This document shows positions 8,386 to 52,700 of a stretch of 64,000 nucleotides of DNA, in pieces; the stretch's first letter is position 1, and each line of letters opens with the position of its first letter. The notes under the pieces are model-generated. The model was given only the letters and a program-made list of their open reading frames with translations, did no database searches and was not told the origin of the DNA. Source of the stretch: Marinifilaceae bacterium (GTDB taxonomy: Bacteria; Bacteroidota; Bacteroidia; Bacteroidales; Marinifilaceae); NCBI GenBank assembly GCA_016936255.1, contig JAFGYE010000095.1:1-64000 (forward strand), given 5' to 3'. The translations under genes and the position numbers were made by a program.

Positions 8386-8589
8386 TTTCCTGCTTTATGC
8401 AGGGAGTCTTGATTGTATAACGTTTTAATAACTTGAGCTTTGAGAAAATGGAAGCATGAATTTGTTTAATTTAGAATAAAAAAATTAGCGTAAGCCTTGC
8501 AAAAGCAGAGATTCTTCCTTAGCTTGCAAGTAATAAGAGAACGTTCTTTGTATATAAGATAATAGCATACCGCATTAATTAGCGATTGT

Positions 8590-8745
8590 TAAACTCAACA
8601 TTTATAAGATACCGAGAAAGCTACAAGCTTGCTAAAGCAGGCCCCAACCTTCGGGTTGTTTCGGCACAGGGGAAACTTGATCAGGCTGGCACTCAAATCC
8701 TGTCATTTAGGAGTTTAAAATCCTATTAATTAGTGCGGTTTTTTT
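8590..8745 (+). ncRNA. candidate structured small RNA with terminator
   Basis: The 440-bp gap between tatD and the AlbA_2 gene holds a segment that looks like a small RNA. A CAACC-TTCG-GGTTG hairpin with a UUCG tetraloop (8645-8658) lies inside CCCC (8642-8645) and GGGG (8669-8672). It is followed by GCACT (8689-8693) pairing with AGTGC (8732-8736), which encloses TAGGA/TCCTA (8708-8725). The structure ends in GG and seven T (8739-8745), like an intrinsic terminator. No open frame fits. I cannot place it in a known RNA family. The rest of the gap (8386-8589 and 8746-8804) shows nothing recognisable. Confidence 0.35.
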
Positions 8746-8804
8746 ATGCTTTTTTTTAATATGTCAGAATGGCGTAAGTTAGCTCGTAATAAGATGTATA
8801 AGGC

Positions 8805-25276: not shown

Positions 25277-25304
25277 ATGCATGCCCGTTAAAAATTGTTA
25301 ATGG

Positions 25305-25580
25305 TTTTAGCAAGGAACAAGTGACAAGCTCCAAGGAACAAGTTTCAAGGAACAAGTATCAAGTGACAAGTATCAAGTAACAAATTTCATGGAGTTGGTT
25401 TGTACTCCGTCGTATCCTGACTATAAGCAAGCTGTAAATGTCAGGTTACGACTAAAAACAATATAACAAATACACAAAAATGGAGACACTACTGTGGATC
25501 AAGTAACAAGTAACAAGTAACAAGTATCAAGTATCAAGTATCAAGTAGCAAGTAACAAGGAACAAGCTCCAAGGGACAAG
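25305..25580. repeat. degenerate 7-mer array with embedded palindromes
   Basis: Two arms of degenerate CAAGTAA/CAAGTAT heptamers (25305-25385 and 25498-25580) flank a non-repetitive core. In the core, GTCGTATCCTGAC (25409-25421) can pair with GTCAGGTTACGAC (25440-25452) with one mismatch, and GGAGT/ACTCC (25391-25408) forms a second small stem. No open frame is present. The array fills the spacer between the bat operon and truA. Confidence 0.8.
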
Positions 25581-25642
25581 GAATCCAATTGTTCATTATT
25601 CTGTCCCTTTGTTCTTTCATTTTCGGACTTGCTAAAAATGCT

Positions 25643-49490: not shown

Positions 49491-49500
49491 GAGTCCTAAA

Positions 49501-49575
49501 AGTCAAAGAGTCTTGAAAAGTCTTGAAGAGTCTTGAAGAGTCTTGAAAAGTCTTGAAGAGTCGAAGGTCAAAAGC
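49501..49575 (+). repeat. AGTCTTGAAG tandem array
   Basis: Five or more 10-bp units of the type AGTCTTGAAG or AGTCTTGAAA follow queA directly. The same word recurs, less regularly, near 52120-52140, 52408-52440 and 52590-52665. Confidence 0.85.
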
Positions 49576-49866: not shown

Positions 49867-51054
49867 ATGAGGAATATCTACTTTTTAATCTGTTTTTTCT
49901 TGACCGCCGGGACAATCGGTTTCTTTTCTCCTTTTTTCGATATCAATTTTGCCGGCTCCGATGCCGGAGGTTCAATATATGGTGTGGAAATTGCAAAATT
50001 TAAATATCCGGTGTATACCGATTATTTCGAGGAATTAAATGACGTTGTAGAGTTGAGTGGCAAAGATGGAGTGTATCATTATTTATCAGGTCTTAGCAAT
50101 TCCAGAAGTGAAGCAGAGAATCGGGTGGAAGAAGTAAAGTCTTTCGGATACGCAGATGCCAGGGTGTTGGATTTAAATCTGGAGTTTTCGTCGGAGCAGC
50201 TTGCCGGAGTTCTTGCAAATAAAACAGGCGGTCAGGATAAAACTCAGAAGAAAAAAATCACCAGCCAAACAGTAAAAAAGAATCCTGCAGCTGAAACCGC
50301 AATTGCTAAGCTGACTGATATAGGTAATGATTGTTACTACACGATACTTCTTCAGAAAAGCAAAAGCATTCTAAATGCCGAAAGTTTTTCTCCGCACAAT
50401 TCAGTGAAAGTACTGGAAGCAGATGGAAAGTTTCAATATGTATTGGGGCGCTTTGAGGATTTGGGCGGGGCTAAAAAATATTTGCAGGAAAAAGTGCTGA
50501 CAGATTTTCCCTATGCCAGCCTTGCACTTATTAATAAAGGGGTGTTAGCGAAAGTGAACGCAGACACAGAAGGGAAAAGTGATGTGAAAATCTCCTCGAA
50601 TCAGACAGGATCCTATAATATGGGGCGGAAAATGAGGGGAAAGGAATATGTTGACTACTATTATGAGCTAGGACATTTAAAGATGTCTGAAAAACCAATT
50701 TACATGATTGAAATTGGAGATTATCACGATAAAAAGATTGCGGATGAGGCGGTTCAGAAATTAAAGGATCTTGGTTTTACTCAGGCAAGAATAAAAACCC
50801 CCTCAGGCCGAAAAACGGAGACCGTTCAGCAAAGTCCTTCTGCAGATGCCCATTTTACCATTCAGGTATTTGCAAGTAAATCTGAAATAAACCTTAAGCG
50901 GATTGCAATTAAAGATCTTACCCGGACATTTGATCCGCAGGACGAGTTGTACCGTTATTTTTATGGTGATTACGACAATTATTGGGTTTGCCGCCGGGAA
51001 CTGCGCGAAATCCGTCAAAAAGGCTGCAGCGATGCATTTATTGTCCGATTATAG
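49867..51054 (+). CDS. exported protein with SPOR-like repeats
   Basis: This 395-residue protein has a signal peptide (MRNIYFLICFFLTAGTIGFF) and about four SPOR-like or related repeats. These are YHYLSGLSNSRSEAENRVEEV near residue 72, FQYVLGRFEDLGGAKKYLQ near 190, YMIEIGDYHDKKIADEAVQKL near 280, and FTIQVFASKSEINLKRI near 335 with WVCRRELREIRQKG at the end. SPOR domains bind denuded peptidoglycan glycan strands; here two of the repeats are degenerate. A Lys-rich linker lies near 120-140. The location is probably periplasmic. It stands alone between an OmpA remnant and the S23 element. Confidence 0.75.
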   Translation: MRNIYFLICFFLTAGTIGFFSPFFDINFAGSDAGGSIYGVEIAKFKYPVYTDYFEELNDVVELSGKDGVYHYLSGLSNSRSEAENRVEEVKSFGYADARVLDLNLEFSSEQLAGVLANKTGGQDKTQKKKITSQTVKKNPAAETAIAKLTDIGNDCYYTILLQKSKSILNAESFSPHNSVKVLEADGKFQYVLGRFEDLGGAKKYLQEKVLTDFPYASLALINKGVLAKVNADTEGKSDVKISSNQTGSYNMGRKMRGKEYVDYYYELGHLKMSEKPIYMIEIGDYHDKKIADEAVQKLKDLGFTQARIKTPSGRKTETVQQSPSADAHFTIQVFASKSEINLKRIAIKDLTRTFDPQDELYRYFYGDYDNYWVCRRELREIRQKGCSDAFIVRL

Positions 51055-51085
51055 GTTCCAAACTTCCAAGGATCAATCTTGAAGT

Positions 51086-51103
51086 AAAAAGGATAAAGTA
51101 CAA
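51086..51103 (+). repeat. left arm of an 18-nt inverted repeat around the S23 gene
   Basis: AAAAAGGATAAAGTACAA is repeated as the exact reverse complement at 51570-51587. The arms enclose the four-helix-bundle gene; adding three more bases (AGG against TGG) gives 20 of 21 matches. The arm is embedded in a run of AAGTATAAAG-like words (51076-51150). Confidence 0.85.
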
Positions 51104-51177
51104 AGGGTGAGAAGTATAAGGAATATTGTAAGTGTAAAGTATAAAGCCACGTGAAACAAAATGAATTGCAAGCTTGA

Positions 51178-51507
51178 TTGTTTAATTTTTCTGTTGACAT
51201 CATAAAACAGGTAAGGGTGTTTCCAGATTCGCGTGAGTATCAAGTAATCTCCTATCAGATATTAAAGTCAGCAACTTCTGTTGGGGCAAATTACGAAGAA
51301 GCGCAAGCAGCTGTCTCAGAAGCTGATTTTGCTAATAAAATCTCTATTTCCCTTAAAGAGATAAGAGAAACAAACTACTGGATTCGTATTGTTAATTCTA
51401 TCTCTGAGGAACAAAAACAATGGGGTATCTTGGAAAGAGAATCTGAGGAATTAATGAAAATATTGGGAGCAATAAGAGTTAAAATGTACCAAAAGCTAAA
51501 ACGGTAA
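51178..51507 (+). CDS. S23-type four-helix-bundle protein
   Basis: This 109-residue protein is of the four-helix-bundle (S23/intervening-sequence) family. FSVDIIKQVRVFPDSREYQVISYQILKSATSVGANYEEA is the conserved N-terminal part, and ADFANKISISLKEIRETNYWIRIV the second helix pair. Members are small, often linked to repeats or to 23S rRNA insertions, and structurally similar to the Avd protein of diversity-generating retroelements; no function is proven. The frame starts after a stop at 51175, so TTG at 51178 is the only plausible start. It is enclosed by an 18-nt inverted repeat (51086-51103 and 51570-51587). Confidence 0.85.
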   Translation: MFNFSVDIIKQVRVFPDSREYQVISYQILKSATSVGANYEEAQAAVSEADFANKISISLKEIRETNYWIRIVNSISEEQKQWGILERESEELMKILGAIRVKMYQKLKR

Positions 51508-51519
51508 CATTACCTTCCT

Positions 51520-51688
51520 TTGTATTTTTTTTCTTTTAACTACTTTTTCATTTCTTTTTATTTTATCCATTGTACTTTATCCTTTTTCCTTTGTACTTAT
51601 TGCCTCCTTTGTACTTTTTCCATTTCTTCCCTTCTCTATTTTATACTTTATACTTGTTACTTTTTCCTTTATACTTGTTATTTTTTCC
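51520..51688 (-). repeat. short-repeat array after the S23 gene, right inverted arm
   Basis: On the minus strand this stretch reads as runs of AAGTACAAAGG and AAGTATAAAGT words. The exact 18-nt right arm is at 51570-51587. Open frames through it (for example 51520-51762) are products of the low-complexity sequence and are not genes. Confidence 0.75.
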
Positions 51689-51689
51689 T

Positions 51690-51697
51690 TACATTTG
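51690..51697 (+). promoter_or_regulatory. -7 box of the rnpB promoter
   Basis: TACATTTG matches TAnnTTTG and ends 4 nt before the predicted rnpB 5' end; the -33 box is not convincing because the repeat array runs up to it. Confidence 0.5.
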
Positions 51698-51700
51698 TCC

Positions 51701-52043
51701 CGGCAAACCGTTCTATCGCTGCTTTGCAAAAAGGAGAGGAAAGTCCGGGCAACATAGAGTAACATACTTCCTAACGGGAAGAAGGTCGAAAGACTTTAGT
51801 AGTAGAACAGAAAAGAACCGCCTTCGGGTAAGGGTGAAAAGGTGAGGTAAGAGCTCACCAGCACTGATGGTGACATTGGTGGCTGTGTACCTTATGTGTT
51901 GCAAGATCAAGTATACCGGCGTATGTAGGCTGACTCGGCTGATGTTCGGGGGGTGGATTGCTCGAGACATTTGGTGACAAATGTTCTAGATAAATGATAG
52001 AAATTCTTTTCGGAGAATACAGGACCCGGCTTACAGGTTTGCC
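51701..52043 (+). ncRNA. rnpB: RNase P RNA
   Basis: This is the catalytic RNA of RNase P, which matures tRNA 5' ends. The conserved core GAGGAAAGTCCGGGC lies near 51734-51748, ACAGAAAAGAACCGCC near 51808, GGTAAGGGTGAAAAGGT near 51827, and the closing segment with ATACAGGACCCGGC near 52017-52030. The ends pair as helix P1: GGCAAACC (51702-51709) with GGTTTGCC (52036-52043). The order and spacing fit a bacterial type A RNase P RNA. Ends are set from the P1 helix and may be off by a few bases. Confidence 0.95.
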
Positions 52044-52060
52044 TTTTTTAAAAAACAAAT

Positions 52061-52107: not shown

Positions 52108-52700
52108 AGTTTGGAAGGGTCTCAAAAGTCTTGAAAAGTCGAAAGTACAAATTCCAAAGTACAAAGTACAAAGCCCAAATTCCAAAGTACAAATTCCAAA
52201 GGAAAAAGGGAGAGCCTGAAGGGCTCAAATATAAATAGTCCAGGGAAAAAAGCGAAGCGAATGCCACCCCGGGATAAGGATGGGACATTACAAATTGGCG
52301 CAGGTGAAAATAATTTTTTGAAGCAGGATCTTATTCTGCGCCACAAGATGTAATGTAAAAAGAAGCATGAGATTGAATTACCTCCCGGATGCAGTTGTTG
52401 GAGAAAAGTGTCTTGAAAAGTCAAAAGGTCGAAAAAAAGTCAATTGCAGTTTTATGGTTTAAATTGCTATGTGGCTTTAGTCCATGGTTTGTGAATATAT
52501 ATTGCCAACTGCTTTAGCTGTTGTGAGAAATGATTTGTTGCAGCAATTCTCCCATTTTAAGGGGAGATCCCGACAGGGTGAGGGGTGTGGAATCGAAAGT
52601 CTTGGAAAGTCTGGAAGGGTCTTGAAAAGTCGAAAGGTCGAAAGGTCGAAGAGTCCAAAAAGTGAAATCTGATTTGGTTGCCATGTGGCTTTAGCTCTTG
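52108..52700. repeat. mixed short-repeat region between rnpB and the polysaccharide locus
   Basis: Three kinds of repeat alternate. AAGTACAAATTCCAA words occur at about 52142-52205. AAAAGTCTTGAA and AAAGGTCGA words occur at 52120-52140, 52408-52440 and 52590-52665. TTGCYATGTGGCTTTAG occurs at 52464-52480 and 52678-52694, with a weaker third copy at 52502-52516. No credible gene was seen between 52095 and 53091; the only other feature is the promoter before 53092. Confidence 0.75.

Follow-up and report, generated by a model that had tools for sequence, protein, structure and literature searches.

The locus described here lies in the genome of a Marinifilaceae bacterium (G000, 4.7 Mb), within a stretch of 64,000 nt that was analysed as a whole and is referred to below as the window. 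Between a SPOR-domain gene and rnpB there is a cassette in which an array of short words is followed by a gene of the S23 family (PF05635) and then by the inverted word array, and the 18-nt inverted repeat seen at the locus is the edge of this larger structure. The comparisons below involve G033, which belongs to the same species as G000, and G027 to G032 and G034, which belong to the same genus. The features of the locus, in order of their start, are:

49867..51054, plus strand: SPOR-domain gene, the left neighbour (ORF and domain match)
51055..51699, plus strand: whole S23 cassette, a 645-nt gap from the stop of the SPOR gene to the start of rnpB, of the same length in G033
51082..51145, plus strand: upstream word array, G-rich strand, with the words AAGTACAAAGG, AAAGGATAAAG and AAGTATAA
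51086..51103, plus strand: left arm of the exact 18-nt inverted repeat (sequence match)
51151..51177, plus strand: 5' part of the S23 frame, from a GTG at 51151 to a TGA at 51175-51177; open in the G030 ortholog
51178..51507, plus strand: S23 (four-helix-bundle) ORF with a TTG start (PF05635, TIGR02436)
51515..51695, minus strand: downstream word array, the inverse of the upstream array, with the words CTTTGTACTT and CTTTATACTT
51570..51587, minus strand: right arm of the exact 18-nt inverted repeat (sequence match)
51640..51655, minus strand: right arm of a second inverted pair (partner 51130-51145, 16 nt, 94%)
51700..52049, plus strand: rnpB (RNase P RNA class A), the right neighbour (236.9 bits)
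52128..52208, plus strand: heptamer array without S23 after rnpB (AAAGTAC, AAATTCC, AAAGCCC)

A sequence-only reading of the window had described the 18-nt repeat as exact and the enclosed gene as S23, and both descriptions hold. AAAAAGGATAAAGTACAA occurs once in the 64-kb window, at 51086, and its reverse complement once, at 51570; the pair can be extended to 25 nt at 92% identity (51082-51106 and 51567-51591). The enclosed ORF matches PF05635 with 59 bits (cut-off 33.8) and TIGR02436, 'four helix bundle protein', with 79.3 bits (cut-off 24). In the domain search PF05635 was the only match of the gene inside the arms, which does not qualify as a RAYT tyrosine transposase; the nearest solved structure by sequence is 2RLD (E 1.3e-15), and 2GSC is a weak sequence relative. 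The extent of the gene had been given as 51178-51507, where an ORF does exist, but the homologous frame opens further upstream, at the GTG, and is interrupted by the TGA. This TGA is present in G033 too and, because it breaks a frame that G030 keeps open, the window copy of S23 is 5'-truncated or decaying.

The flanks of S23 genes were scored by the best local match between the 200 nt upstream and the reverse complement of the 200 nt downstream. Among 329 ORFs of at least 90 aa, taken from the window and from 20 evenly spaced 20-kb stretches (400 kb) of G033, the window S23 gene ranked first with a score of 40, followed by 33, and 25.5 was reached by 12 of 328 control genes (13 of 329 if the window S23 is counted). 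These control genes were scored without gene ends, and the score that includes gene ends is controlled only by the arms of other sites. The family set comprised 116 S23 ORFs (118 before removal of duplicates), a selection of the PF05635 matches in the family; 77 of them had inverted flanks above the 99th percentile of shuffled flanks, against 15 in direct orientation, leaving 39 below the threshold, as were 18 of the 30 loci sampled across the phylum (see below). The mean arm score of the 116 genes was 33.0 with the right partner and 18.6 with a wrong one. With gene ends included, 81 of the 116 scored at least 28 compared to 3.5% of arm pairs from different sites, and the median score was at least 28 at 21 of 29 sites. 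In all these counts related loci are not independent and the samples partly overlap. As the flanks are A+T-rich and repetitive, it is conceivable that chance or base composition makes the arms match. Wrong-partner arms of similar composition nevertheless score near background and control genes seldom pass the threshold, and on these two comparisons we rejected this explanation, leaving it a negligible probability. The enclosure had been suggested to be fortuitous should such flanks be equally frequent around unrelated genes; inverted flanks are instead strongly enriched at S23 genes.

The genome carries six S23 genes with six different words: GTAGATAGTA; GCAATTGGC/TTTTAGC; GAAAAGTCTTG; ATTACGA; AATTAATAATT; and, at the window locus, AAGTAC/AAAGGATAAAG. 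The sequence-only reading had proposed to test whether inverted AAGTACAAAG words surround the other S23 genes. Inverted arrays are indeed present, but they are built from other words, and AAGTACAA was absent as an inverted pair within 700 nt of all five other S23 genes. A role for AAGTACAAAG around every S23 gene was consequently rejected, as each locus has its own words and AAGTACAAAG belongs to the window copy. With gene ends included the six arm scores were 20, 27, 48, 33, 37 and 40 (the last being the window locus), i.e., at least 27 at five of six loci, and the sixth was recognised by eye: this weakest locus shares its word array with its copy in G033, for which the score is 27. Only three of the six reach 25.5 by the strict score without gene ends, because the arrays run into the gene ends at L002 and L004.

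The arms are periodic and polar. Among 122 arms of at least 28 nt the best period was 7 or 14 in 80, 8 in 23 and 9 in 14, with periods of 4 to 14 tried, so that the doubles of 8 and 9 lay outside the range. G outnumbered C in 94 of 103 non-tied, non-redundant upstream arms, compared to 128 of 303 non-tied control upstream regions. Where both neighbours are known (135 of 146 genes), the upstream neighbour was on the same strand as S23 in 131 (234 of 313 in controls) and the downstream neighbour in 112 (229 of 313 in controls). The arms therefore have a fixed polarity, and the element is almost always found behind a gene on the same strand. Between strains the arrays change by whole words: the cassettes that G000 and G033 carry between sdhA and sdhB are identical except for one exact 7-nt word, and in all two arrays differ between these genomes by single whole heptamers. 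At the L003 cassette the difference between them is wider than single heptamers.

Orthologous sites were compared at several gene junctions. The genes called sdhA, sdhB, yicC-like and gmk here were named by Pfam (fumarate reductase flavoprotein C-terminus, 2Fe-2S, YicC-like and guanylate kinase, respectively). The sdhA/sdhB junction is empty (3 nt from stop to start) in 13 of 30 loci and occupied by S23 in 9, where the gap is 447-481 nt with word arrays at both ends. Within the genus of the window genome the junction is empty in G027 and G031, carries a TAGTA-word cassette in G000, G033, G030 and G034, and carries a GAGAT-word cassette with a different S23 in G028, G029 and G032 (61% protein identity between G000 and G028; in G029 the S23 match spans only 62 of 106 positions). 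Between G030 and G028 both flanks are 96-97% identical and the cassette 60%, while between G000 and G030 the flanks are 94-95% identical and the cassette is identical at 471 of 474 positions plus one 7-nt gap, i.e., one word. The alignment of related genomes between the SPOR gene and rnpB, which had been proposed as a check on the sequence-only reading, revealed that the whole cassette is either shared or swapped. The cassette of G030 is 93.4% identical to that of G000 (563/603; 63 gap columns) and unlike that of G028 (387/619), even though in the SPOR gene G030 resembles G028 (562/600) more than G000 (510/600). G028 and G034 carry different cassettes in the same place, with 60-62% identity to G000. 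The rnpB gene is conserved in all pairs compared, and the right flank (333/340) is more alike than the cassette. At the yicC-like/gmk junction there is a 10-nt gap in G006, a 110-nt gap with a word hairpin without S23 in G007, and a full cassette in four genomes of the genus to which these two belong; G016, from another genus, has a 224-nt gap with a hairpin and no S23. Similarly, the rnpB site of G038 is filled by a hairpin of another word, without S23. Orthologous sites thus occur in three states: empty, with a hairpin that lacks S23, and with the full cassette.

Species of one genus can thus differ in the cassette while their flanks are similar, or share a cassette type beside a more diverged flanking gene, so that gene and arms behave as an exchangeable unit at these junctions of co-directional genes. 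We are highly confident that the S23 gene together with both arms is a discrete exchangeable unit, bound in its orientation and with matching ends that differ between elements. A miniature mobile or self-propagating unit whose ends are the repeat words themselves had been envisaged for the locus. A discrete and patchy unit that is exchanged between species agrees well with the first part of this description; self-propagation is conjectural, and the exchanges fit homologous recombination between the flanks as well as movement driven by S23. At sdhA/sdhB, G000 and G030 are also identical in the sequence that borders the cassette, over 85 nt on its left and 53 nt on its right, and towards the end of sdhA there are dense differences between G030 and G028. 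The exchanged tracts hence seem to overrun the cassette, as in ordinary homologous recombination.

The arms could alternatively be attenuators or terminators that the host uses for an ordinary conserved gene, and not the ends of an element. S23 is under purifying selection (median dN/dS 0.096 in 59 pairs, at 75-97% protein identity and dS <2) and has resided at some sites for long across genera, e.g., upstream of rnpB, where it is found in 12 genomes from five genera, the window's own aside. Cleanly empty junctions in genomes of one genus, and swaps in which S23 changes together with both arms, speak on the other hand against such a host function. Furthermore, where orthologs share less than about 75% protein identity, the similarity of an arm is to the opposite arm of its locus (score 38-43) and no longer to its counterpart in the ortholog (21-27), in an arms-only comparison that is biased by construction towards the own partner. 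An initial comparison, in which the same arm appeared more alike between orthologs, was set aside since its 200-nt flanks took in the neighbouring genes, and the arms-only version replaced it. Taken together we find host regulatory arms improbable.

A classical DNA transposon, with S23 as the transposase that recognises terminal inverted repeats, would account for inverted ends, for miniature copies without S23 and for patchy presence. The ends vary however from element to element, the orientation relative to the upstream gene is single, and paralogs were old in the four genomes tested, where S23 paralogs were at most 47-71% identical. The paralogs group largely by site in a tree read by eye, and the sole near-identical pair seen is a head-to-tail tandem at the rnpB site of G027 (L070, 1534-2214, locus reverse strand); neither the paralog identities in the four genomes nor the tree gave a direct sign of movement to new sites. 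At sdhA/sdhB no target-site duplication was visible, among loci that included no recent insertion. We know of no nuclease motif in the S23 four-helix-bundle family. One orientation and old paralogs disfavour S23 as a classical transposase, and we consider this explanation very improbable.

It may also be that the cassettes are intervening sequences of mRNA, in which the arms pair, RNase III cuts and the S23 segment is separated, so that selection on the RNA keeps the arms matched. The S23-encoding intervening sequences (IVSs) of 23S rRNA are described as having complementary ends that are cut by RNase III (PMC4990558), the upstream neighbour of S23 is nearly always on the same strand, as noted above, and the fold of the window cassette is better than that of each of 20 shuffled versions (z -2.03). 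Selection on RNA should however enrich mismatches that are compatible with G.U pairing, and over 94 loci 82 of the arm mismatches were G.U-compatible compared to 99 that were incompatible, i.e., there was no G.U excess. This asymmetry test gave no support to RNA pairing as the force that keeps the arms matched. An RNase III stem would moreover not need degenerate word arrays. An origin as mRNA intervening sequences thus appears rather unlikely.

The window locus is an example of a small and widespread type of genetic element, with S23 between inverted arrays of short words. PF05635 was found in 41 of 56 genomes of the family. Of the 392 Bacteroidota genomes sampled across the phylum, 300 had matches (285 of them over the cut-off), frequently with more than one copy. 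Among 30 genes from the best-scoring loci of the phylum (two ORF hits were dropped) 12 passed in inverted and 2 in direct orientation. A set of named loci, mostly Bacteroidota, was made from the best 80 of 496 confirmed hits, four of which were left unscored as their flanks were too short; 51 of the 76 passed in inverted orientation, 10 of 76 in direct orientation and 3.7% with wrong partners. One of these loci, L259, is the same as L018 of the family set (3318/3318). Fifteen of the 76 come from records titled as other phyla, mostly metagenome-assembled genomes (MAGs), for which the organism names may be wrong. Eleven of the 15 pass (an Ignavibacteriae, two Clostridia, two Planctomycetota, a Kiritimatiellaeota, a Gottesmanbacteria, a cyanobacterium, Thiohalocapsa, Ramlibacter and Desulfosarcina), and those that fail are an Oscillospiraceae, SAR324, a Lentisphaerota and a Bacillota. 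In a further set that includes cyanobacterial plasmids 34 of 41 loci passed, or 22 of 29 without the 12 loci already in the named set, from genomes chosen partly for visible arms. Cyanobacterial loci passed in 11 of 13 cases (10 of 12 without a repeated locus) and those on cyanobacterial plasmids in 8 of 10 (10 of 39 plasmid records found). The words around the plasmid genes include AGGGAAC, AGGTGAC, GGGTGTA and TTTTAGC, and three of these genes (L342, L344 and L345) are located inside CRISPR operons, either between cas6 and cas4 or between cas10/cmr2 and a cmr3-family gene.

Word arrays also occur without S23. In the window rnpB too lies between inverted arrays, as the forward AAAGTAC array follows it; this array is one 7-nt word shorter in G033 than in G000, at the array start, and G028 and G034 have words of the GAAAAGTC type in its place. 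Two further heptamer arrays without S23, at 25303-25590, consist of AAGTAAC and AAGGAAC, the words of the rnpB-site cassettes of G028 and G034, and arrays of about 10-nt words of the GAAGAGTCTT type, again without S23, are found at 49500-49575 and 52590-52660; the L003 cassette has the same word type. A near-perfect GGAATTA heptamer array is located directly behind an ORF at 5582-5660 of L160, a stretch without an S23 match. An unrelated feature of the window is a Bacteroidales-1 RNA, a suggested 6S RNA, at 8568-8746 (85.8 bits). The window holds five of seven dense arrays in 464 kb, one of the five being the S23 arm itself. Per 400 kb there were two dense arrays in G033 (six S23 genes), none in G026 (seven) and none in G042 and G045 together (no S23 found), numbers too sparse to relate array density to S23 content. 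S23 was found within 1.5 kb of 2 of 17 distinct TAACTGA places and 2 of 30 TTAGC places, and hence not within this distance of 43 of 47 long solo-array loci of these two words (15 of 17 for TAACTGA). In an unmatched control of 360 pieces, each about 3 kb long and taken from further genomes in the phylum, S23 did not occur. S23 is thus enriched near long solo arrays, but far from being a rule. Genomes with TAACTGA arrays carried S23 in 13 of 15 cases, with no clear difference from the overall frequency in the phylum given above.

On balance, we lean towards an explanation with three parts: an action of S23 in cis on the arms that enclose it, the copying of one arm to make the other, and the spread of the element to the same junction in other cells. 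An S23 oligomer would bind the G-rich word strand or the hairpin of the two arms, as RNA or single-stranded DNA, and would act in cis on its own element. One arm might then be copied from the other by fold-back and template-switching DNA synthesis, with slippage by one word; such copying would explain the tandem words, the inverted symmetry and their joint turnover in one step. Elements could reach the same junction in other cells through recombination between flanks or through homing promoted by S23, and the short hairpins and solo arrays that lack S23 would represent non-autonomous copies or remnants. The parts of this explanation are not equally secure. That S23 binds its own arms is about an even proposition, while copying of the arms by the element itself is doubtful. 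Propagation driven by S23 is something we infer, and ordinary recombination may be responsible. It is tempting to speculate, though we do so tentatively and think it unlikely on present evidence, that S23 elements form a novel class of mobile elements whose ends are self-written: an element's own word would be copied and slipped into two inverted arrays, and no fixed end would be read. If so, ends and protein would travel together while the word is free to change, and S23 elements would be a source of heptamer arrays in cyanobacteria, Bacteroidota and others.

The rule of matched arms joins the function of S23 with the spread of heptamer arrays and opens both to testing. From the flanks of an S23 gene it predicts the ligand of the encoded protein, and it provides a way to find such elements and their positions in operons (sdhA/sdhB, cas6-cas4, cmr2-cmr3), where annotation shows them as lone 'four helix bundle protein' genes. 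S23 cassettes may therefore help to explain scattered short-word repeats of obscure origin. In the literature searched, with most subscription papers and all bioRxiv preprints outside its scope, no paper was found that ties S23 to short-word arrays.

Several known systems resemble the cassette in part. According to a description from 2016, no function was known for S23 proteins, and a relative is a pentamer of four-helix bundles (PMC4990558). A resemblance to Avd of diversity-generating retroelements, which is reported to be similar to PF05635 (PMC10053308), had been raised for the window gene. As a family resemblance between related four-helix bundles it stands, and the sequence-only reading was also right that there is no reverse transcriptase beside S23. 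The genome has three PF00078 reverse transcriptase matches, one of them with a group II intron maturase domain, on contigs C96, C92 and C31, while S23 genes are on C89, C74, C72, C82 and C47; a diversity-generating retroelement was rejected because no contig with S23 carries a reverse transcriptase. Unlike in transposons and MITEs, the arms are not conserved between copies or distant orthologs. The arms of S23 are tandem degenerate heptamers, as are the cyanobacterial STRRs, which reportedly also occur within rnpB. Like S23 arms, the TAACTGA repeats and STRRs are tandem short words, intergenic and strain-specific, and their spread was called unexplained. For the TAACTGA arrays 'no mechanism' is said to be evident, and a mobile repeat-binding protein is offered as one possibility (PMC4679880). 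In contrast to S23 cassettes the TAACTGA repeats are described there as arrays alone, and the term S23 is absent from the main text of that paper (PMC4679880). REPIN/RAYT systems share with the cassettes short words that form inverted doublets and potential hairpins, linkage to a gene, and hairpins without the gene (PMC3116915). They differ in that the gene of the cassette is S23 and not a RAYT tyrosine transposase, and in that the words change from one S23 element to the next (six loci, six words), with no single abundant family. The closest known system is the S23-encoding IVS of 23S rRNA, in which an S23 ORF lies between complementary ends (428 nt in Coxiella) and which is sporadically present at conserved sites (PMC4990558). 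The window S23 ORF likewise has complementary ends, and the differences lie in location, ends and copy number: the window cassette lies between the SPOR gene and rnpB, outside the 23S rRNA gene, and S23 cassettes in general occupy gene junctions, with word-array ends particular to each element and several different copies per genome.
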